IMG/VR virus record: IMGVR_UViG_3300017692_000007
Location: 1 to 24,734 of that record
Length of the DNA stretch: 24,734 bases
Direction: 5' to 3' (one strand)
From: a virus
This document shows positions 2 through 21,475 of the stretch, piece after piece. The notes under the pieces are model-generated. The model made no database searches. It was given only the letters and a program-made list of their open reading frames with translations, and was not told the origin of the DNA. How positions within the stretch are numbered: position 1 is the stretch's first letter; every line of letters starts with the position of its first letter. The position numbers and the translations under genes are program-made.

Positions 2-373
2 ATCAAGAAGCTCGACAACCTGTTCGGCGCCTCCAAGAAGTACGGCGAGGGGTGGATCCCCTCCCTCGCGGGCAACCGCGTGTACGTCGACAGTTTCCAC
101 AAGCTGCTGGTGTACCTGCTGCAGTCCACCGAGAAGATCACCTGCTCCGCGGCCTGCCTGCTCACCATGCAGCGGCTCGAGGAGGCGGGTATCCCCTTCG
201 TGCCCGCTGTGTTCATGCACGACGAGCTCGACTTCCTAGTGCCCGACGAGCACGCGCTGGAAGCGGGGAAGATCGGTAGGCAGGCGTTCAAGGACGGCCC
301 CGCGATGTTCGGGGTTGAGATCATGGACGGCGGCGAGGCGAAGCTGGGAAGGAACTGGTACGATGTCCACTGA
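2..373 (+). CDS. DNA polymerase, family A (T7 gp5-like), C-terminal part only
   Basis: The reading frame is open from the first bases of the window to a TGA at 371-373, so only the last ~123 residues of the polymerase are present. The end carries the family A motif C, seen as HDELDFLVPDEH, in which the aspartate after His-Asp-Glu belongs to the palm active site of phage and bacterial Pol I enzymes. Upstream, a helix with QSTEKITCSAACLLTMQRLEEAG fits the region before motif C. The protein would replicate phage DNA with the primase-helicase encoded at 2252. The 3'-5' exonuclease domain and any thioredoxin-binding loop lie outside the window and cannot be judged. The stop overlaps the next start by 11 bases. 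Confidence 0.9.
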   Translation: MKKLDNLFGASKKYGEGWIPSLAGNRVYVDSFHKLLVYLLQSTEKITCSAACLLTMQRLEEAGIPFVPAVFMHDELDFLVPDEHALEAGKIGRQAFKDGPAMFGVEIMDGGEAKLGRNWYDVH

Positions 374-2251: not shown

Positions 2252-3976
2252 TTGGGTAAGATAGTCAGCAAAGACAATCCCTGCCTAGACCAAGTGGAAT
2301 GCCAGTCGAGCGACGGCATGCAAGTATACGACGACGGGAGCGGCTTCTGCTTCTCCTGCCACCAGTTCTGGTCGAAGTCCCAGGTGGACTCGGCAGACCC
2401 AGCCGACGTGCGGAGAAAGACTCGAGTGAGCGACGTGGACGACGAGGACGAGTTCCAGCCCCAGATGACCGTCGAGAGGGCGGCCGAGCTCCCGATACGG
2501 GGGCTCAGGGACCGGGGCATCCCCAAGGACATCTGCGAGTTCTTCGGGGTTCGCGTGTCGTACGGGTCGGACGGCGAGATCGACCAGCACTTCTACCCGC
2601 ACGGCCACGGCTACAACGTGCGGAAGGTCGCCGAGAAGAAGTTCTACCGCGTCGGCGACTGCGACGACCTGTGCGGCGCCGACAAGTTCAGCGGCGGCGG
2701 CAGGCGCGTGGTGGTGACCGAGGGCGAGCCGGACATGCTGTCCGTAGCCTACGCCACCCGCAAGAAGTGGGGCACCATCTACCCGGTGGTCACTATGGGT
2801 AGCTCGGCCAACACCGGCCTGCTGCTCAAGCGGCGCGAGTGGCTGCGCACCTTCGACGAGGTCGTCCTCTGGTTCGACAACGACGACGCCGGCAAGGACG
2901 CCCTCGACAAGGCGATCAAGATCATCGGCTTCGACAAGATCAAGATCGCGAAGCACCCGGTGCACAAGGACGCGAACGCCGTCCAGATGGCGGACGGCTG
3001 GGAGGCGGTCCTGCGGCCGATCTTCGACGCCGAGAAGTTCGTGCCCGCCGGCATCATCTCGCGCGCCGTGCTGAAGGAGCGCATGCGCCTCCTCAACTCG
3101 GTGCACGCGCTGCCCTACCCCGCCTGCATGGCGGGAGTCAACAAGAACCTCAAGGGCATGCGCACCGGCGAGATAGCGCTGTTCACGAGCGGCACCGGCT
3201 CGGGCAAGTCGACGCTGGTCCGCGAGATCATCCTCGAGATCAAGGCCCAGACCGACGAGAAGATCGGCTACTGCGCGCTCGAGGAGTCGCCCGAGGCGGA
3301 GGCCAAGCGCATGTCCGGCATGCAGCTCAGCCGCAACACCGCCAAAGACGACATGGAGTTCGAGGAGCTGGAGGTAGGCTTCGACGAGCTCTTCGGCAAG
3401 GAGGACGAGGAAGAGCGCATCATGATGCTCGACCACCAGGGCAGCATCAGCGACGCCTCCATCGTCGACAAGATCGAGTACATGTGCCTGATGGGGTGCA
3501 AGTACATCGTGATCGACCACATCACCATCCTCGTGTCCGAGGGCGTGGACAAGCTCCAGGGCAACGAGGCTCAGGACAAGATCATGAACCAGCTGCTTTC
3601 GCTGGTCAAGCGCTACCCGGTGTGGATCGGCCTCATCTCGCACCTCCGCAAGGTCGGCCAGGGCGCGGTGAGCTTCGAGGAGGGCAAGCTGCCCACGATG
3701 GACGACATCAAGGGCTCGGGCTCGATCAAGCAGATCTCGTTCGACATCATCGCCTTCGCGCGCGACCTCAACGCGGCCTCCGAGGTCGAGCGCAACACAA
3801 TCAAGATGGCCGTGCTCAAGGCGCGCACGACCGGCCTCACGGGCCGAGTCAACGGGGCCATCTACGACCACGACACCGGCCGTCTCAGGGCGGAGCCCGA
3901 GAGGGACGCTCTGGCGAACGGCGAGGACGAGGTCGAGGACTTCAGCAAAGTGGAGACTACGTGGACAAAGAGCTAG
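2252..3976 (+). CDS. Fused DNA primase-helicase (T7 gp4-like)
   Basis: This 574-residue bifunctional enzyme would synthesise primers and unwind DNA ahead of the polymerase. Cysteines C11, C17, C33 and C36 form an N-terminal zinc ribbon. The TOPRIM primase core shows VVVTEGEPD (glutamate ~157) and WFDNDDAGK (208-215). The RecA-type hexameric helicase domain carries the Walker A motif GTGSGKS (314-320), Walker B ending KYIVID (aspartate ~422) and GSGSIKQISF near the sensor/arginine-finger region. The start is TTG with GAGGAG five bases upstream; no in-frame ATG gives the zinc ribbon. Length and order match T7 gp4. The C-terminus is acidic, as in T7, where such a tail contacts polymerase. It overlaps nrdA by 16 bases. 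Confidence 0.95.
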   Translation: MGKIVSKDNPCLDQVECQSSDGMQVYDDGSGFCFSCHQFWSKSQVDSADPADVRRKTRVSDVDDEDEFQPQMTVERAAELPIRGLRDRGIPKDICEFFGVRVSYGSDGEIDQHFYPHGHGYNVRKVAEKKFYRVGDCDDLCGADKFSGGGRRVVVTEGEPDMLSVAYATRKKWGTIYPVVTMGSSANTGLLLKRREWLRTFDEVVLWFDNDDAGKDALDKAIKIIGFDKIKIAKHPVHKDANAVQMADGWEAVLRPIFDAEKFVPAGIISRAVLKERMRLLNSVHALPYPACMAGVNKNLKGMRTGEIALFTSGTGSGKSTLVREIILEIKAQTDEKIGYCALEESPEAEAKRMSGMQLSRNTAKDDMEFEELEVGFDELFGKEDEEERIMMLDHQGSISDASIVDKIEYMCLMGCKYIVIDHITILVSEGVDKLQGNEAQDKIMNQLLSLVKRYPVWIGLISHLRKVGQGAVSFEEGKLPTMDDIKGSGSIKQISFDIIAFARDLNAASEVERNTIKMAVLKARTTGLTGRVNGAIYDHDTGRLRAEPERDALANGEDEVEDFSKVETTWTKS

Positions 3977-5757
3977 TAAAGTGCGGCGACTACACCATCG
4001 CCATCGACCGCAGCCGGGACGCGCTGTTCGACGAGATGGGCCTGCGCCGTCTCCGTGACTCCTACCTGCAGCCCGACGAGGACAGCCCGCAGATCCGCTT
4101 CGCGCGGGTGTCCGCGGCGCTGGCCTCCAACGAGGCGCACGCCCAGCGGCTGTACGACTACTCGTCGCAGCATTGGTTGAGCTACTCGACGCCCATCCTG
4201 TCCTACGTGCCGGGCGGGCGGGGGCTGCCGATCAGCTGCTACCTGACGTACATCCACGACTCGGCCGAGGGGCTGGTGGACGCCCTCTCCGAGGTCTGCT
4301 ACCTGTCCATGGCGGGCGGCGGCGTGGGCCTGGGCATCGGCATCCGCTCCGAAGACGGCAAGTCGGTCGGCGTGATGCCGCACCTCAAGACCTACGAGAA
4401 CGTGTCCCTCGCCTACCGGCAGGGCACGACCCGGCGCGGCAGCTTCGCCGGCTACCTCGGGATCGGCCATCCGAACATCAAGCAGTTCATCGACATGCGC
4501 AAGCCGACCGGCGACGCCAGCCAGCGCTGCCTCGAGCTGCACCACGGCGTCAACGTGCCGGACGCGTTCATGGAGATCATCAAGGCGTGCATGGTGGACG
4601 CCGACGCGGACGACAGCTGGCCGCTCGTCGACCCGCACTCGGGCGTCGTAAAGGAGGTCGTCTCGGCGCGCGAGCTCTGGGAGGCCATCCTGGACAGCCG
4701 CATCCGCACCGGCGAGCCCTACATCCACTTCATCGACGCCAGCAACGAGGCCATGCCCGAGTACCAGAAGGCGCTCGGCCTCTCGGTGACGCAGAGCAAC
4801 ATCTGCACCGAGATCACCCTGCCGACGGACCGGGACCGCACGGCCGTCTGCTGCCTCTCCTCGCCCAACCTGGAGTACTGGGACCAGTGGCGGGGCAACT
4901 ACCTCTTCGTCCGCGACATCGCGGAGATGCTCGACAACGCCCTCGACCTCTTCATCCGGGACGCGCCCGACGCGGTGTCGCGCGCCAAGTTCTCGGCCAT
5001 GCGGGAGCGCGCCATCGGCGTGGGGGCGCTGGGCTTCCACGCGCTGCTCCAGAGCAAGGGCATCCCCTTCGAGGGCGCCCTGGCGACCAGCCTCAACCAC
5101 CAGATCTTCTCGCAGCTCCGGACCTACCTGGACCGGGCCAGCCGCGAGCTGGCGGAGGAGCGCGGCCCCTGCCCCGACGCGGCGACCGTCGGGCTCATGG
5201 AGAGGTTCAGCTGCAAGATGGCGATCGCGCCGAACGCGTCCACCAGCATCCTGATGGGCAACACGTCGGCCTCCATCGAGCTGTACCGCGCCAACGCGTA
5301 CCGGCAGGACACCCTGTCCGGCTCGCACCTGCACAAGAACAAGTACCTCGACCGGCTGCTGCGCGACCGGCTGCAGGGTGAGGAGTACGACGACGCGTGG
5401 CACGGCGTGGTGAAGGCGGCCGGCAGCTGCCAGCACCTGACCTGCCTGACCGACTACGAGAAGCTGGTGTTCAAGACCGCGACCGAGGTCGACCAGCTCT
5501 GGGTCGTCGAGCACGCCTACGAGCGCCAGCAGTACATCGACCAGGCGCAATCGCTCAACCTGTTCTTCACGGCCGACGCCTCGATCGACTACATGCACCA
5601 CGTGCACTTCACCGCCTGGCAGAAGCGGCTGAAGACGCTCTACTACTGCCGATCCGACAAGATCTACCACGGCGAGGGGACGACGCGGCACCGGGCCGCC
5701 CCGGTCGAGTTCAAGCGCTCGGTCGACGAGTCCACCTGCCTGGCATGCGAGGGCTGA
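3961..5757 (+). CDS. nrdA: Class I ribonucleotide reductase, alpha (catalytic) subunit
   Basis: This 598-residue subunit reduces ribonucleoside diphosphates to deoxy forms with a radical supplied by NrdB. Visible catalytic features are GLPISCYL (C93), SNICTEITLP (N280, C282 radical cysteine, E284), VCCLSSPNL (C297 as the second redox cysteine), the YY pair in LKTLYYC for radical transfer, and a C-terminal CLACEG, where the CxxC pair re-reduces the active site. The N-terminal ATP-cone found in E. coli NrdA is absent and the protein is much shorter than the ~760-residue cellular form, as in many phage enzymes. Loss of the cone suggests relief from dATP inhibition. GTG at 3961 follows GTGGAG and overlaps the primase-helicase stop. 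Confidence 0.95.
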   Translation: MDKELVKCGDYTIAIDRSRDALFDEMGLRRLRDSYLQPDEDSPQIRFARVSAALASNEAHAQRLYDYSSQHWLSYSTPILSYVPGGRGLPISCYLTYIHDSAEGLVDALSEVCYLSMAGGGVGLGIGIRSEDGKSVGVMPHLKTYENVSLAYRQGTTRRGSFAGYLGIGHPNIKQFIDMRKPTGDASQRCLELHHGVNVPDAFMEIIKACMVDADADDSWPLVDPHSGVVKEVVSARELWEAILDSRIRTGEPYIHFIDASNEAMPEYQKALGLSVTQSNICTEITLPTDRDRTAVCCLSSPNLEYWDQWRGNYLFVRDIAEMLDNALDLFIRDAPDAVSRAKFSAMRERAIGVGALGFHALLQSKGIPFEGALATSLNHQIFSQLRTYLDRASRELAEERGPCPDAATVGLMERFSCKMAIAPNASTSILMGNTSASIELYRANAYRQDTLSGSHLHKNKYLDRLLRDRLQGEEYDDAWHGVVKAAGSCQHLTCLTDYEKLVFKTATEVDQLWVVEHAYERQQYIDQAQSLNLFFTADASIDYMHHVHFTAWQKRLKTLYYCRSDKIYHGEGTTRHRAAPVEFKRSVDESTCLACEG

Positions 5758-13971: not shown

Positions 13972-14261
13972 GCGAGTACACCGCGCTGCTGGCCAAGATG
14001 AGCGAGCAGGACCGGGAGATCGTCCAGGCGAAGATGGCGCAGGTCCAGCTGACGGCCGCGAGGGACACCAAGAACCGCATGTACGTGGTGGCCGAGATGC
14101 GGGCCGGACCCATGCGCCTCGAGGCCGTGGACTTCGAGGGCAAGGTGACCTTCACCATGTGCTACGACAACGACGTGATGGCTCACATGGGCGAGGAGGC
14201 TGCGAGGCTGTTCAGCACCTTCGTCACCGACACCATGGAGCGACGCCCCAAGGAGGGCTGA
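13968..14261 (+). CDS. Hypothetical protein
   Basis: This encodes 97 residues from a GTG overlapping the cupin stop. An N-terminal helix (LLAKMSEQDREIVQAKMAQVQ) is followed by strands (NRMYVVAEMRAGPMRLEAVDF; KVTFTMCYD) and a C-terminal helix. The fold is likely alpha/beta; no motif identifies it. The stop overlaps the next ATG as TGATG, so it is coupled to the conserved phage protein at 14261. Confidence 0.68.
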   Translation: MSEYTALLAKMSEQDREIVQAKMAQVQLTAARDTKNRMYVVAEMRAGPMRLEAVDFEGKVTFTMCYDNDVMAHMGEEAARLFSTFVTDTMERRPKEG

Positions 14262-15010
14262 TGAACATATTCTACGTGGACCTGGACCCCGCGAAGGCGG
14301 CCCAGGCCCTCCACAACCGACACATCATCAAGATGATCAGCGAGAGCTGCCAGCTGCTGTCCGTCTGGGCTAGCCGCTGGACCCCGATGGACCGGGGCAA
14401 GCTCTCGTTCATGACCGACGAACAGCACGCCGCCATGATGGCCGAGGTCGAGGCGGCGGACTTCGACCCCGAGGTGACCGACGCGATGGCGGAGGTGCCG
14501 CCCGACGTGCCCTGGACCGGCATCTCCCACCAGAACCACCCCGCCGCCCTGTGGCTCAGCGAGGGCCTCGGCAACGTGAGGTGGCTGGTGGAGCACCTCA
14601 AGGCTATGGTCGACGAGTACGACTTCCGCTACCCCGGCAACAAGGACAAGTTCGAGCGCGCGAGGGTCATCGTGCCCGCGATGCGCTACTGGCTGGGCAA
14701 GTTCGTGACGCTCAACCACACCTGCCCGAAGGCCTGCTTCCCGGACAAGTACAAGCACGAGCCCCTGGACCGCGAGAACGTGATGCAGGGCTACCGGGAC
14801 TACTACCTGTCGGAGAAGATCGCCGGCAACGAGTGGGGCAAGCGGGAGCCGCCGAGCTGGGTGATCCGGTACAAGGAACTCTACAAGCCTCCTCCCCCGA
14901 TCGACGTGGGCGACATCTTCGCCGTGCCGTCGAAGCCCAAGGTCGAGCACGCTCTGCCGGTCGCGGAGCCGACTCGGCAGAAGGTCAGCGCGAAGGACAT
15001 CGTGTTCTAA
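14261..15010 (+). CDS. Conserved phage protein with HNRHIIKM motif
   Basis: This 249-residue protein starts MNIFYVDLDPAKAAQALHNR and continues HIIKMISESCQLLSVW, then ISHQNHPAALWLSEGLGNVR and LVEHLKAMVDEYDFRY. This string of conserved pieces (DxDP-A, HxxKM-E-QLLS, NHP-A-W, DEYxxRYG) belongs to a widespread family of phage and large-virus proteins of unknown role. Some annotations label it a pyrimidine-dimer glycosylase, but I cannot see the T4 endonuclease V active site and do not endorse that. Clustered His, Asp and Glu suggest a metal enzyme. The C-terminal tail (residues ~205-249) is Pro-rich and looks disordered. GGAGGG precedes the ATG. Confidence 0.7.
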   Translation: MNIFYVDLDPAKAAQALHNRHIIKMISESCQLLSVWASRWTPMDRGKLSFMTDEQHAAMMAEVEAADFDPEVTDAMAEVPPDVPWTGISHQNHPAALWLSEGLGNVRWLVEHLKAMVDEYDFRYPGNKDKFERARVIVPAMRYWLGKFVTLNHTCPKACFPDKYKHEPLDRENVMQGYRDYYLSEKIAGNEWGKREPPSWVIRYKELYKPPPPIDVGDIFAVPSKPKVEHALPVAEPTRQKVSAKDIVF

Positions 15011-15582: not shown

Positions 15583-15867
15583 ATGAAGGTGAGACAACTC
15601 AAGGCCATGCTTGAACGCTTCGACGAGGACGCCAGCGTGTCCCTGCTCGGGGCCGTCCAGGAGGTCCAGATCACGGGCTACAGGCCGGGGCTGCGCGTCA
15701 GCTCCGTGGAAGGAGAGATACATGATAAAGCGGGCCCTGTCGTGGATATTTCGCCGCTTCCGCCGCAGAGCTACGTCGTCCTCGACGGCGGGCTCTCGCC
15801 GGACAGCGTCATCCCCGGAATTCTCGATGCCGTACGGACAGCAGGTCCGGCGAGGCTCCTCCAGTGA
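15583..15867 (+). CDS. Hypothetical small protein
   Basis: This 94-residue protein begins MKVRQLKAMLERFDEDASVS, a start common to small phage proteins that have one helix packed on strands. Then follow VQEVQITGYRPGLRVSS and a Pro/Gly-rich end. Coding bias is clear up to about 15720 but weaker afterwards, where a second frame with a strong ribosome binding site begins. The ATG has no obvious Shine-Dalgarno sequence of its own. The function is unknown. Confidence 0.65.
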   Translation: MKVRQLKAMLERFDEDASVSLLGAVQEVQITGYRPGLRVSSVEGEIHDKAGPVVDISPLPPQSYVVLDGGLSPDSVIPGILDAVRTAGPARLLQ

Positions 15868-15883
15868 GCGACCCCGCCGCTGA
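15722..15883 (+). CDS. Possible nested small basic protein
   Basis: GGAAGGAGAG lies six bases before ATG 15722 and opens a 53-codon frame inside the previous gene. It ends just after the start of the following one. The product begins MIKRALSWIFRRFRRR and is rich in Ser and Arg. The start signal is among the best in the window, but Ser/Arg-rich composition is also typical of out-of-frame reads in GC-rich DNA. It could be real, or the signal could serve the overlapping gene only by chance. Confidence 0.3.
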   Translation: MIKRALSWIFRRFRRRATSSSTAGSRRTASSPEFSMPYGQQVRRGSSSERPRR

Positions 15884-16193
15884 GCGGCTGCGGTGGGCCG
15901 AGGCGCTGGAGAGCGGCAAGTTCGAGCAGGCCGAGGGCGCGCTGAAAGACAGTGCGGGACACTTCTGCTGCCTAGGCGTGGCGTGCGAGCTCTACGACCC
16001 GAGCAAGTGGAAGGTCGACGAAGAGCTTTACGTCGAATACGAGGGCATGCTCGGCATACCGCCCCCTCCCGTGCTGGAACGCTTCGGCATAACGGAAGAC
16101 CAAGCCAACTACTTGGCGACCTTGAACGACAGCCAGGGCAAGACCTTCAAGGAGATTGCCCAGGTCATTCGTGAAGGCATCCCTTCGTGCTGA
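15864..16193 (+). CDS. FCCLGV-family phage protein
   Basis: This 109-residue protein starts at a GTG overlapping the previous stop. It has WAEALESGKFEQAEGAL, then HFCCLGVACELYD (C35, C36, C41), a middle with PPPVLERFGI and a C-terminal LNDSQGKTFKEIAQVI. This is a recognisable phage family: a Trp-led helix with LxSGxY/F, a Cys-rich FCCLGVxCE block, then LNDxxGxxFxEIA. The role is unknown. Related copies occur at 16998 and at 24549, and a looser relative at 18450. The Cys block may bind metal or be structural. Confidence 0.78.
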   Translation: MSDPAAERLRWAEALESGKFEQAEGALKDSAGHFCCLGVACELYDPSKWKVDEELYVEYEGMLGIPPPPVLERFGITEDQANYLATLNDSQGKTFKEIAQVIREGIPSC

Positions 16194-16456
16194 CCGCGCT
16201 GGAGGGTGAGCCCACGGACGGCGTGGTCCTGTTCTGGGCAGGTTGGGCACCGCCCTCGACCGACATGCGAGACATGATGCACGCGCTGCCGGACGAGTTC
16301 CGCCACGTGGACGTCGAGGCTAACCCCGAGGCCGCGCTCAAGAACGACGTCAGGGGGCTGCCGACCGTCGTGCTCTACAGGCGCGGCGTCGACATGTCGC
16401 GCAAGATCGGCTACATCAACGAGCAGGCCCTCCGCGCGTGGATCGCGGAGAACTGA
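16187..16456 (+). CDS. Thioredoxin-fold protein lacking the redox cysteines
   Basis: This 89-residue protein has the thioredoxin core order: strand VVLFWAGW (13-20), helix, strand FRHVDVEANP, then RGLPTVVLYRRG with the cis-proline (P59), and a C-terminal helix. The WCGPC active site of thioredoxin is replaced by W20-A-P-P-S24, so both catalytic cysteines are missing while the second proline is kept. It cannot act as a disulfide reductase by the usual mechanism and is not a likely reductant for NrdA. T7 DNA polymerase uses host thioredoxin as a processivity factor without its redox activity, so a structural role of that type is an attractive inference. The start is GTG, overlapping the previous gene by seven bases. 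Confidence 0.75.
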   Translation: MLTALEGEPTDGVVLFWAGWAPPSTDMRDMMHALPDEFRHVDVEANPEAALKNDVRGLPTVVLYRRGVDMSRKIGYINEQALRAWIAEN

Positions 16457-16560: not shown

Positions 16561-16932
16561 ATGAAGATCGCGAACATGAACCAGGTCTGGCTCGCCAGCA
16601 AGGGCAAGCTCATCGCCTCGGCGGACGACATCGCCAACACCCTGGCCGACAAGCACAAGGTGCTGTGCGTCTGCGACCCCGACTCCGCTATCGTGATCCT
16701 CGAGACCTCCGACGAGGTCCTGGAGCAGCCCGACGACGCCGCGATCTACATCGTGGACAAGGGTGAGTTCGACGAGGTCCCCGGCGAGCTCGACCCGTTC
16801 GTCGCCACCGCCACCCCGACCGAGCGCTTCTTCGAGGAGAAGATCGAGTCGGCGTTCGGCGAGCCCGAGGAGGAGGACGAGCGGGAGACCGAGGACGCAG
16901 AGCTCAGCGAAGAGCACCAGCGGGCGCAGTAA
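16561..16932 (+). CDS. Acidic hypothetical protein
   Basis: This encodes 123 residues from ATG 16561, eight bases after GAGGA; ATG 16554 in another frame is too close to the site. The N-terminal two thirds read as alternating strands and helices (NQVWLASKGKLIASADDI; SAIVILETSDEVLE). The last 40 residues are extremely acidic (FGEPEEEDERETEDAEL). It resembles DNA-mimic or histone-like-binding phage proteins in charge only; no family is recognised. It is preceded by an elaborate leader and followed within six bases by the second copy of the repeated intergenic element. Confidence 0.72.
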   Translation: MKIANMNQVWLASKGKLIASADDIANTLADKHKVLCVCDPDSAIVILETSDEVLEQPDDAAIYIVDKGEFDEVPGELDPFVATATPTERFFEEKIESAFGEPEEEDERETEDAELSEEHQRAQ

Positions 16933-19043: not shown

Positions 19044-19174
19044 CGGAGCGGGAGGCCAAGAGGATGGGTGCCCTGGAGCAGGCGCTCCGGGACATCGCCA
19101 ACGCGGCGCAAAGCGCCAACTGGCAAGTTATCAAGACCATCGCGCAGAGCGCGCTTGAGGAGAACAGAGCATGA
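19040..19174 (+). CDS. Tiny helical protein
   Basis: This encodes 44 residues if it starts at GTG 19040, which overlaps the previous stop, or 36 from ATG 19064, which has GGGAGG eight bases before it. The product is one amphipathic helix, GALEQALRDIANAAQSANWQ and onward. Its stop overlaps the start of the SPFH-like lipoprotein as ATGA, so it may serve to couple translation. The function is unknown. Confidence 0.55.
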   Translation: MTEREAKRMGALEQALRDIANAAQSANWQVIKTIAQSALEENRA

Positions 19175-19953
19175 AGAAGATCATTGCAGCAGCGGCCCTC
19201 GCCCTCGTGTCGGCCTGCTCCAACGTCACGACCGAGGCGAACGAGGAGAAGGTGCTCAACGCCAAGCCCGTGTTCTTCGGCTCCGGCGGCGTCTACGACC
19301 AGCCCGTCAAGGGCTCGGAGTGGGTCGCGTGGTCGACCCAGGCCATCCCGGTCAACATGCAGCCCGAGCAGCACACGTTCGAGCTGAACGACCTGATGAC
19401 CAGCGACGGCGTGCCGCTGGACTTCGACGCGTCCGTCGTGACCCAGGTCACGGACTCGGTCGGCCTGATCAAGCGGTTCGGCACCGGCTGGTACGACAAC
19501 AACCTCCGCACCGAGCTGCTGTCGTACATCCGCGACGCCGTCAAGAAGCACGGCATGAACGAGACGGCGATCACGTCCAGCGCGGCGGCCAGCATCGACG
19601 CCGAGGTCTCGCGCCGCATCGAGGACTACCTCGCCCGCACCAAGTTCCCGGTGCGCCTCGTGCGCTTCACGATCGGCCGGGCCAACCCGCCGGACAGCGT
19701 GAAGAACCAGCGCATCGCGACGGCGGCGCAGCAGCAGCGCGTGCTGACGCTGAAGTCGGCGGTGGTCGCGGAGGAGCAGCGCGCGCTCTCCGAGGCCAAG
19801 CGCGCCAAGGCCGACCAGGCCTACAAGGAGGGCCTCGGGCTGTCGAGCGACCAGTACATGGAGAAGCTCAAGCTCGACACGCTCGGCCAGGTCTGCGGCA
19901 ACAAGAACTGCACGTTCGTGCAGCAGGGCACGCCCCTGATCCTGAGCCGCTGA
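19171..19953 (+). CDS. SPFH/prohibitin-like lipoprotein
   Basis: This 260-residue protein has a lipoprotein signal MKKIIAAAALALVSAC with C16 as the lipid site; serine at +2 points to the outer membrane under E. coli rules. Residues ~50-170 match the SPFH (band 7) domain: VPLDFDASVVTQVTDSVGLI, a central helix pair (LLSYIRDAVKKHGM) and a late strand VRLVRFTIGRANPP. A long coiled coil follows (QQQRVLTLKSAVVAEEQRAL), then a two-cysteine tail (CGNKNC). SPFH proteins form large membrane rings that scaffold or protect proteases. Phage versions exist, but their role is poorly known. GAGGAG precedes the ATG. Confidence 0.85.
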   Translation: MKKIIAAAALALVSACSNVTTEANEEKVLNAKPVFFGSGGVYDQPVKGSEWVAWSTQAIPVNMQPEQHTFELNDLMTSDGVPLDFDASVVTQVTDSVGLIKRFGTGWYDNNLRTELLSYIRDAVKKHGMNETAITSSAAASIDAEVSRRIEDYLARTKFPVRLVRFTIGRANPPDSVKNQRIATAAQQQRVLTLKSAVVAEEQRALSEAKRAKADQAYKEGLGLSSDQYMEKLKLDTLGQVCGNKNCTFVQQGTPLILSR

Positions 19954-20344: not shown

Positions 20345-21062
20345 GTCAACGTTCAACGACACCATGGTGCTCGCTCACCTCCTGCGCGGCTCCACCGCCT
20401 GCACCTACGACGCGGGCTACACCACCATCACCCACAACGAGGAAGACAGCATGAACGACATCCAAATCCGCCGCGGCGACATCCTGACCTACCGCAACAT
20501 GCACCCCGAGGGCAAGCCGGGGCAGGAGACCGTCAGCTCGTACTACGACGGCGTCTACCTCGCGATCGACGACAAGGTCGGCGACTTCGTGCCCGCCATC
20601 CGGTACACCGACCGGATCGGCGACTACTACTCGGCCAGCACCGAGCGGCGCACGATCGACCTGACGAAGGCCGTCGTCGAGAACCACGGGCGCGACGGCG
20701 ACCGGGTCAAGCGCATGATCGACGCGCTGCGCCGCTTCTCGGAGACGCCGCCCAACCCGGTCAGCGGGAAGCGCGGCTACGTCGAATCCGTCTACACCGG
20801 GGCCGCGCACCTCGCCGACGAACTCGAGCTGCTCTTCGGCGACATGGACGACGAGCCGGACACCCCAGAGGACGCGCGCCTCGACGAGCTGGCGACCGGG
20901 CTCGTGGTCGGCGTGGAGGTCTTCTCGGACGACGCCCCAGCTATCCAGGAGATCAGCGCCGAGCAGGCGATCGGCCTCTTCTACCTCCTGCTCAAGGACT
21001 GCGGCATGTCCCCGCAGGAGGCCGTGGCCGCGATCGAGGTCCTCGACGAGGCCCTGGGGTGA
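20307..21062 (+). CDS. Hypothetical acidic protein
   Basis: This encodes up to 251 residues. ATG 20307 follows GGAGA by nine bases, and third-position G/C bias is already high from there. ATG 20451, with GAGGAAG upstream, gives a natural-looking 203-residue product starting MNDIQIRRGDILTYRN. Neither can be excluded. From 20451 the protein has a strand-rich N-terminus, a basic helix (DRVKRMIDALRRF), an acidic stretch (LLFGDMDDEPDTPEDARLDE) and a C-terminal helical domain ending VAAIEVLDEALG. No motif is recognised. The stop overlaps the following GTG. Confidence 0.65.
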   Translation: MHYYDLPCMRAGKSTFNDTMVLAHLLRGSTACTYDAGYTTITHNEEDSMNDIQIRRGDILTYRNMHPEGKPGQETVSSYYDGVYLAIDDKVGDFVPAIRYTDRIGDYYSASTERRTIDLTKAVVENHGRDGDRVKRMIDALRRFSETPPNPVSGKRGYVESVYTGAAHLADELELLFGDMDDEPDTPEDARLDELATGLVVGVEVFSDDAPAIQEISAEQAIGLFYLLLKDCGMSPQEAVAAIEVLDEALG

Positions 21063-21475
21063 TCTACGTCCTCGGGGAGCGACCCGGCCCCAACACGGAC
21101 CCGGACTCTCCGCTCGACCCCGAGGGCAGCATGTCCGGCAAGCGCCTCAGCCAGCTCCTCGGACTCACCCCCGAGGAGTACCTGGAACGTACGGTCCGGG
21201 TGAACGCCAACCCGGACCACCACGGCTCCACCGCCTCCAGGGGCGCTCGGGACAGGGCCGCCAACCACCTGGAAGCCAGCGCCTACAGACCGTTCCTGGT
21301 GCTCGGCAAGCAGGCCCTCAGGGCCATGCCCGAACGTTTCCGGAGCATGGAGATCGGGGACGTGCGAGAGAACGTCCTGCTGCTCCCGCACACCAGCGGG
21401 GTCTGCAGGGTGTGGAACGACAAGGAGTACATGGCCGCGCTCGGCGAGTTCGCCAGGGCGTTTGTGTCAGTCTAG
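21059..21475 (+). CDS. Uracil-DNA-glycosylase-superfamily-like protein
   Basis: This 138-residue protein starts VLGERPGPNTDPDSPLDP, then SGKRLSQLLGL, a strand with VNANPD, a conserved FLVLGKQALRAMP and a late LLPHTSGVCRVWND. The GE-x-PG near the start, the second glycine-rich loop, and a late histidine-containing strand resemble the uracil-DNA glycosylase fold. It is smaller than typical enzymes, and the key catalytic residues are not all certain. It may be a repair enzyme or a nonenzymatic relative. The GTG start overlaps the previous stop as GTGA. Confidence 0.55.
   Translation: MIYVLGERPGPNTDPDSPLDPEGSMSGKRLSQLLGLTPEEYLERTVRVNANPDHHGSTASRGARDRAANHLEASAYRPFLVLGKQALRAMPERFRSMEIGDVRENVLLLPHTSGVCRVWNDKEYMAALGEFARAFVSV

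Follow-up and report, generated by a model that had tools for sequence, protein, structure and literature searches.

A thioredoxin-fold protein without cysteines as a candidate processivity clamp for the T7-type DNA polymerase of the same virus

The locus analysed here raises the question of what a thioredoxin would do for a virus once both of its active-site cysteines are gone. T7's use of host thioredoxin is the textbook case of a borrowed protein, and the window, which is the whole stretch of DNA that was analysed (24,734 nucleotides; an entire IMG/VR record of 24.7 kb), carries a frame of this fold together with the end of a T7-type DNA polymerase gene. We consider the protein to be probably (at a rough probability of 0.62) a dedicated non-redox thioredoxin that serves as processivity clamp for the phage's own T7-type polymerase, its binding and its effect on processivity being predicted from the comparisons given below. 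The frame and its key positions are:

16187 to 16456, plus strand: redox-dead thioredoxin-fold protein, 89 amino acids, GTG start (Pfam, PHROG, PDB sequence search, AlphaFold, Foldseek)
16247 to 16258, plus strand: residues 21-24, APPS, where E. coli thioredoxin has C32-G-P-C35 (alignments)
16352 to 16366, plus strand: RGLPT (residues 56-60), equivalents of R73, G74, I75, cis-P76 and T77 (alignment)
16403 to 16411, plus strand: K-I-G (residues 73-75), equivalents of K90, V91 and G92 (alignment)

The initial annotation had described a thioredoxin fold without active-site cysteines, and this description was borne out by PF00085, AlphaFold, Foldseek and alignment. PF00085 (Thioredoxin) was matched over residues 10-87 (E 1e-8; 35.5 bits against a cut-off of 23.5) and PHROG 22 (thioredoxin domain) at E 6e-5, and a PDB sequence search returned 113 sequences at E ≤ 0.001, the top ones being thioredoxins. 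The AlphaFold model (pLDDT 86.7) was compared to the PDB by using Foldseek; title or sequence search identified the 50 listed matches as thioredoxin chains, fusions or complexes, except for 2bto_T, whose title names another protein. With a TM-score of 0.84 to 2trx, and of 0.72-0.85 (query-normalised) for PDB thioredoxins, the structure check that had been proposed for the frame returned a thioredoxin-like predicted fold. The beta-alpha-beta-alpha-beta-beta-alpha order is present and the cis-proline is P59; what corresponds to the first strand and helix is strongly reduced, and the open frame extends upstream by four codons only (93 amino acids in all). Conserved positions include the Trp before the site, the second active-site Pro, the cis-Pro and the late Gly. 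The protein contains zero cysteines, with WAPPS where WCGPC is expected, and thus lacks the CxxC of a redox-active thioredoxin. The buried Asp26 position is Leu, a weak redox criterion because Asp26 is absent also from 9 of the 14 intact-CxxC rows of the comparison described below. The protein was found at 99% identity on two further viral contigs, which makes a sequencing error unlikely, the contigs coming from related metagenomes and so being not fully independent.

Neighbouring and other relevant genes of the window are:

15864 to 16193, plus strand: upstream gene, phrog_18067 (function unknown), with a 7-base overlap between its stop and the start of the thioredoxin
16561 to 16932, plus strand: downstream gene of unknown function, which also adjoins the thioredoxin ortholog in the related contig G004 (35% identity)
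5737 to 5748, plus strand: CLAC at the C-terminus of the phage NrdA (translation)
2252 to 3976, plus strand: T7-type primase/helicase (Pfam/PHROG-type matches)

The overlap makes translational coupling of the thioredoxin to the upstream gene possible. Four further frames were noted in the window: a SegE-type GIY-YIG endonuclease (1735-2250; PF19835, E 2.5e-15) between the exonuclease and primase/helicase genes, a pyrimidine dimer DNA glycosylase-like protein (14159-15010; PF03013, E 2e-6; phrog_624) with a similar protein in G004 by eye, an SPFH/Band 7 domain protein (19171-19953; PF01145, E 3e-15) with a lipoprotein-like start by eye, and a weak, sub-cut-off match to the uracil-DNA glycosylase superfamily (21059-21475; PF03167, 20.3 against 24.3 bits).

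Both NrdA and NrdB are encoded by the window virus, and the C-terminal CxxC of NrdA needs an outside reductant. The earlier claim that the frame cannot be this reductant is supported, as the protein has no Cys. A thioredoxin ortholog is present in G004, a 76.8 kb relative with 73% polymerase identity to the window virus. The G004 thioredoxin (L050:9857-10147) is 30% identical to the window protein (24% in another alignment) and has the same downstream gene, on the same strand, with the thioredoxin downstream of the polymerase; its active site, WSNLA, is also dead and differs from that of the window. A separate glutaredoxin (CEWC) lies 1.4 kb before it and may do the redox job in place of the dead thioredoxin. 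A search for glutaredoxin in contigs G000-G003, all four from the window virus, found none. The protein could once have reduced the phage ribonucleotide reductase and now be decaying, its job having passed to a glutaredoxin or to the host, which would be in keeping with NrdA and NrdB in the window virus and with the glutaredoxin nearby in G004; yet the frame, the cis-Pro, Gly92 and the basic residues at positions 73 and 90 have persisted in two orthologs that share only 30% identity, and decay does not predict a loss confined to phages with long-loop polymerases, as described below. We give decay a very slim chance.

The initial annotation had also credited the phage with a T7-type polymerase. 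The window alone shows the end of this gene:

2 to 373, plus strand: T7-type DNA polymerase, last 123 residues only (100% identical to L004/L016 over this stretch)

The full enzyme was obtained from another contig of the same virus, G002 (L004/L016), from which a complete 660-residue polymerase was read at L016:10001-11980, the 123-residue overlap being 100% identical. It matched T7 gp5 by phmmer (E 6e-23) over both the exonuclease and polymerase domains. With its AlphaFold model (pLDDT 91.7) as query, the first 27 Foldseek matches were all T7 polymerase chains (E 6.5e-35 to 5.0e-29) and the 28th was another family-A enzyme (1.9e-23). VIA-align placed 546 residues on T7 polymerase 2ajq_A (Z 30.3) and ranked Bacillus polymerase I fragments level with it (Z 30.8 vs 30.3), so that VIA-align alone does not single out T7.

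The T7 enzyme binds thioredoxin through an insertion in its thumb, and the check proposed for the phage polymerase found an insertion at this place, 64 residues between the columns of T7 257 and 334 compared with 77 in T7 (residues 258-333); in the phage enzyme the loop lies near residues 209-272. Its end, AGPYCRVEIE, corresponds to GAPYTPVEHV of T7, with T7 P325, V329 and E330 matched, and a Glu stands six residues before the Pro, like T7 E319 (by ungapped count; the printed alignment is one column off). The C-terminal half of the loop is alike; the SWYQP segment of T7 (Y265) is absent from the N-terminal half. On the thioredoxin side, both basic residues R56 and K73, the equivalents of R73 and K90, are kept. 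According to PMC5984650, R73 and I75 of thioredoxin make contacts with T7 polymerase, and simulation gives the salt bridges R73-E330 and K90-E319. The redox capacity of thioredoxin is not needed in T7 (PMC3997047; PMC5984650).

The suggestion of a redox-dead processivity factor is supported in part: the predicted fold and the thumb insertion both came out against refutation, and the phage comparison fits it. The window virus's own case is weaker than that of phages of the Bajun, DSS3P8 and RcXuper type, because its loop is shorter than that of T7 (64 vs 77) and lacks this segment. If the clamp reading is right, the thioredoxin would sit on the thumb insertion and keep the enzyme on DNA, like E. 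coli thioredoxin with gp5, through a docking surface made up of the KIG loop, the cis-proline loop and the area around the lost active site. Loss of the cysteines would suit a partner needed as a shape only; a Cys-free clamp could not be oxidised, would not be diverted to thioredoxin reductase or other clients, and would be independent of host supply, a benefit that we infer together with the reason for the loss.

Among relatives of the polymerase, PF00085 was matched in 5 of 27 records, which comprise two window-virus contigs, G004, and the glutaredoxin-like proteins of G011 and G013. The remaining 22 records gave no PF00085 match; these include the complete genomes of DSS3_VP1, Kolga and SIO1 and contigs of 54 kb and 97 kb (G022), with most of the others below 40 kb. 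In another set of relatives, of 80 loci, 40 were searched and a thioredoxin was detected in none. A two-sequence thioredoxin profile run on the relatives added only the G011/G013 protein above the inclusion threshold, and a scan with a two-sequence thioredoxin alignment returned the known loci and G004 only. G011 and G013 pair a window-type polymerase loop with a CSGC glutaredoxin-like protein. As there are relatives with the loop in which no thioredoxin was detected, having the loop does not by itself imply that a phage needs a thioredoxin of its own.

To relate CxxC state to polymerase loop, we assembled a panel of 26 entries from the phages that tblastn returned for four query proteins (window, G004, Bajun and XM05); active sites were read and genomes searched for T7 gp5. 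The long loops have 64-94 residues, the limit between 54 and the 64 of the window having been set after the data were seen. Counted as one entry each were 112 Rheinheimera records (Barba9A) and G073/76/77. The panel reads as follows:

Window virus: APPS; long-loop polymerase, broken
G004: SNLA; long-loop polymerase, broken
Bajun: SGPA; long-loop polymerase, broken
XM05: CGPT; long-loop polymerase, broken
EliS-L02: CGPS; long-loop polymerase, broken
Lacusarx: CAPS; long-loop polymerase, broken
DSS3P8, MD18, DSS3_MAL1, RcXuper, RpAliso: AGPC; long-loop polymerase, broken
BcepSaruman, FLC9, inbricus, JWAlpha, BRock, Motura: CGPC; no long-loop polymerase, intact
RD-1410W1-01 (Roseobacter phage, Schitoviridae): CNPC; no T7-type polymerase, intact
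Jenst, DC31: CSPC; no long-loop polymerase, intact
Barba9A: CSSC; no long-loop polymerase, intact
MD-2021a: CAPC; no long-loop polymerase, intact
phiEco32: CAPC; split T7-like polymerase with a loop of 54, intact
LAh_6: CVNC; split T7-like polymerase with a loop of 54, intact
G073 group (G073/76/77): CQPC; T7-type polymerase with a loop of 44, intact
GuyFagieri: no CxxC; no T7-type polymerase match, broken

CxxC is broken in all 11 entries that combine a thioredoxin of their own with a long-loop T7-type polymerase; among the 15 entries without such a polymerase, 14 keep CxxC and one (GuyFagieri) is broken. A T7-type polymerase is present in 3 of these 15, phiEco32 and LAh_6 (loop 54) and the G073 group (loop 44), and BRock and MD-2021a, scored as having none, gave weak family-A matches (33 and 44 bits). 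Fisher's test of the association gave p 1.6e-6 when entries were counted and 0.002 when lineage labels were (4/4 vs 1/13), where the lineage labels are our own and the panel is small, non-random and partly hand-chosen, with non-independent entries. RpAliso, RcXuper, EliS-L02, Lacusarx, Motura and GuyFagieri were added after the pattern had been seen and before their active sites were, and 5 of the 6 fit it, GuyFagieri being the one that does not. MD-2021a was kept, though it may not be a pure phage record, as another contig so named holds trxC. The comparison thus ties broken sites to long-loop T7-type polymerases, as the clamp idea predicts. A basic residue at the K90 position occurs in 9 of 11 broken and 5 of 14 intact rows; the SWYQP-like segment is kept in similar form by Bajun and the DSS3P8 group, and T7 E330 is not kept in Bajun, XM05, EliS-L02 and Lacusarx.

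Several sequences were left outside the panel: the engineered T7 records LR745706-9, which are annotated with an E. coli-type trxA, MT838854 (CGPC, 4.8 kb), the glutaredoxin-like proteins of G011 and G013, Syn5 (identified once the test had been run), L288, L289, and tblastn matches with an unread active site. In LR745708 an intact CGPC stands beside a chimeric tail fibre, and a raw count would have listed it as T7 polymerase with intact CxxC. L288/G114 (AGPC, with no polymerase in 98 kb) was considered as a counterexample and is uninformative, because it is collinear with DSS3P8 and its contig is missing the stretch, at about 55-89 kb, that holds the DSS3P8 polymerase. L289, retrieved by the AGPC scan, is actually CGPC and has no polymerase match.

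Annotation of these proteins is uneven. The redox-dead thioredoxin of Brevundimonas phage Bajun (L161:286-621) is annotated as an exonuclease, probably a mis-annotation, and that of MD18 as hypothetical. The protein of Rhodococcus phage GuyFagieri (L195:280-678) is weakly thioredoxin-like, lies two genes from a DnaE-like polymerase and is possibly a clamp for another polymerase.

GuyFagieri, in which no T7-type polymerase was matched and whose thioredoxin-like protein has no CxxC, also bears on whether the window protein could be a non-redox adapter or folding partner of another phage protein, such as an RNA polymerase, a helicase or a virion part. This reading, which we regard as unlikely, is helped by the distance of about 16 kb between the thioredoxin and polymerase genes of the window and by the structural role of thioredoxins elsewhere, the second-ranked Foldseek match being titled as a complex of Rhs toxin, TrxA and immunity protein; it does not predict the link between broken motif and long-loop T7-type polymerase across four lineage labels. 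A link to polymerase type is equally unexpected, yet seen, if the protein is a decoy that engages host thioredoxin reductase or thioredoxin clients without turnover, as a host-takeover or anti-defence factor, and we consider such a decoy highly improbable even with the fold and client-facing loops retained and the chemistry gone.

Two checks less prone to selection bias started from one gene at a time. Starting from the polymerase, 50 of 80 profile-found contigs were searched for thioredoxin; none was detected in 47, and the three positives (G073/76/77) all have CQPC and a polymerase loop of only 44 residues. Starting from the thioredoxin, 80 viral contigs with the pattern AxWCGPC[KR] were collected, and a T7-type polymerase profile run on the 48 largest gave a full match in 0 of the 48 and one weak partial match (30 bits). 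In the first 30 kb of cyanophage Syn5, a home-made profile matched gp25 (L204:10475-10771; E 7e-4), unnamed as to product in the record, which is thioredoxin-like with CGPC and lies one gene before a DNA polymerase with a loop of 35. T7-type polymerases with short loops (Syn5, G073 group) go with an intact CxxC. We take the Syn5 paper to be the second of the two works on marine podoviruses cited by the DSS3Phi8 paper.

A polymerase tree was used to ask how often the cysteines were lost. The AxxC entries, the CxxS/T entries and the window pair (window virus and G004) each form one clade (100/100), and the deep order is unsure owing to the long branches of T7, SIO1, Kolga and DSS3_VP1. The nine broken-motif isolates form one group, which makes their polymerases kin, and the window pair is set apart from them. 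Because AxxC keeps the second Cys and CxxS the first, the two do not derive from one loss, which gives at least two losses; if the thioredoxin genes followed the polymerases, the window pair would add a third independent loss. The loss might instead track host or phage lineage, that is, large alphaproteobacterial phages, and not the polymerase: 8 of the 9 broken-motif isolates are recorded on Brevundimonas, Erythrobacter, Sphingobium, Ruegeria, Phaeobacter or Rhodobacter, the ninth, DSS3_MAL1, has no host in its record, and the tree groups all nine polymerases. We hold this to be very unlikely, in view of the separate position of the window pair and of Roseobacter phage RD-1410W1-01, a single case, which keeps CNPC without a T7-type polymerase.

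The broken thioredoxin of the window looks like one instance of a wider pattern, for which the clamp reading offers a general form. We rate at somewhat better than even the chance that the conversion of a redoxin into a private clamp, with its redox chemistry given up, has happened two times or more, and probably at least three, in phages with long-loop T7-type polymerases, and that a broken CxxC in a phage thioredoxin therefore predicts that the genome also encodes a T7-type polymerase whose loop binds thioredoxin. If this is true, evolution has split the clamp role from the redox role, a separation for which the basis so far has been E. coli thioredoxin mutants made in the laboratory; small phage proteins with poor annotation, such as those of Bajun and MD18, would become predicted replication factors, and natural redox-independent clamps for polymerase work would be at hand, together with a sequence rule that can be checked in any new genome.

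That a phage thioredoxin may aid the phage's own T7-like polymerase was proposed for DSS3Phi8 (PMC4961962, 2016) and for Privateer (PMC7881722, 2021); the former paper refers to two works on marine podovirus thioredoxin (PMC4961962). The thioredoxin-binding loop of phiCbK is 11 amino acids longer and another partner protein was suggested (PMC3556154), and phiKMV-like phages lack the loop (PMC5653853). The idea of an own thioredoxin for an own polymerase is already in print (2016, 2021); its coupling to the loss of the cysteines was met in no report within the accessible portion of the open-licence literature.

Among known systems, DSS3Phi8 and the Privateer/phiEco32-like phages resemble the window virus in having their own thioredoxin and a T7-like polymerase in the genome; the portions available of the two papers make no mention of a changed active site, and here DSS3P8 has AGPC and phiEco32 has CAPC. 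Redox-type phage thioredoxins and glutaredoxins (PHROG 22; Barba9A, DC31, BcepSaruman) share the fold, the size and the cis-proline, but Barba9A, DC31 and BcepSaruman, unlike the window virus, keep CxxC and have no T7 gp5 match in their genomes. T7 gp5 with E. coli thioredoxin shares with the window virus a family-A polymerase, a thumb insertion, a partner of thioredoxin fold and a dispensable redox function; in contrast to T7, the partner in the window is encoded by the phage and lacks the catalytic cysteines, and the loop has 64 residues instead of 77 and is alike in its C-terminal half only.
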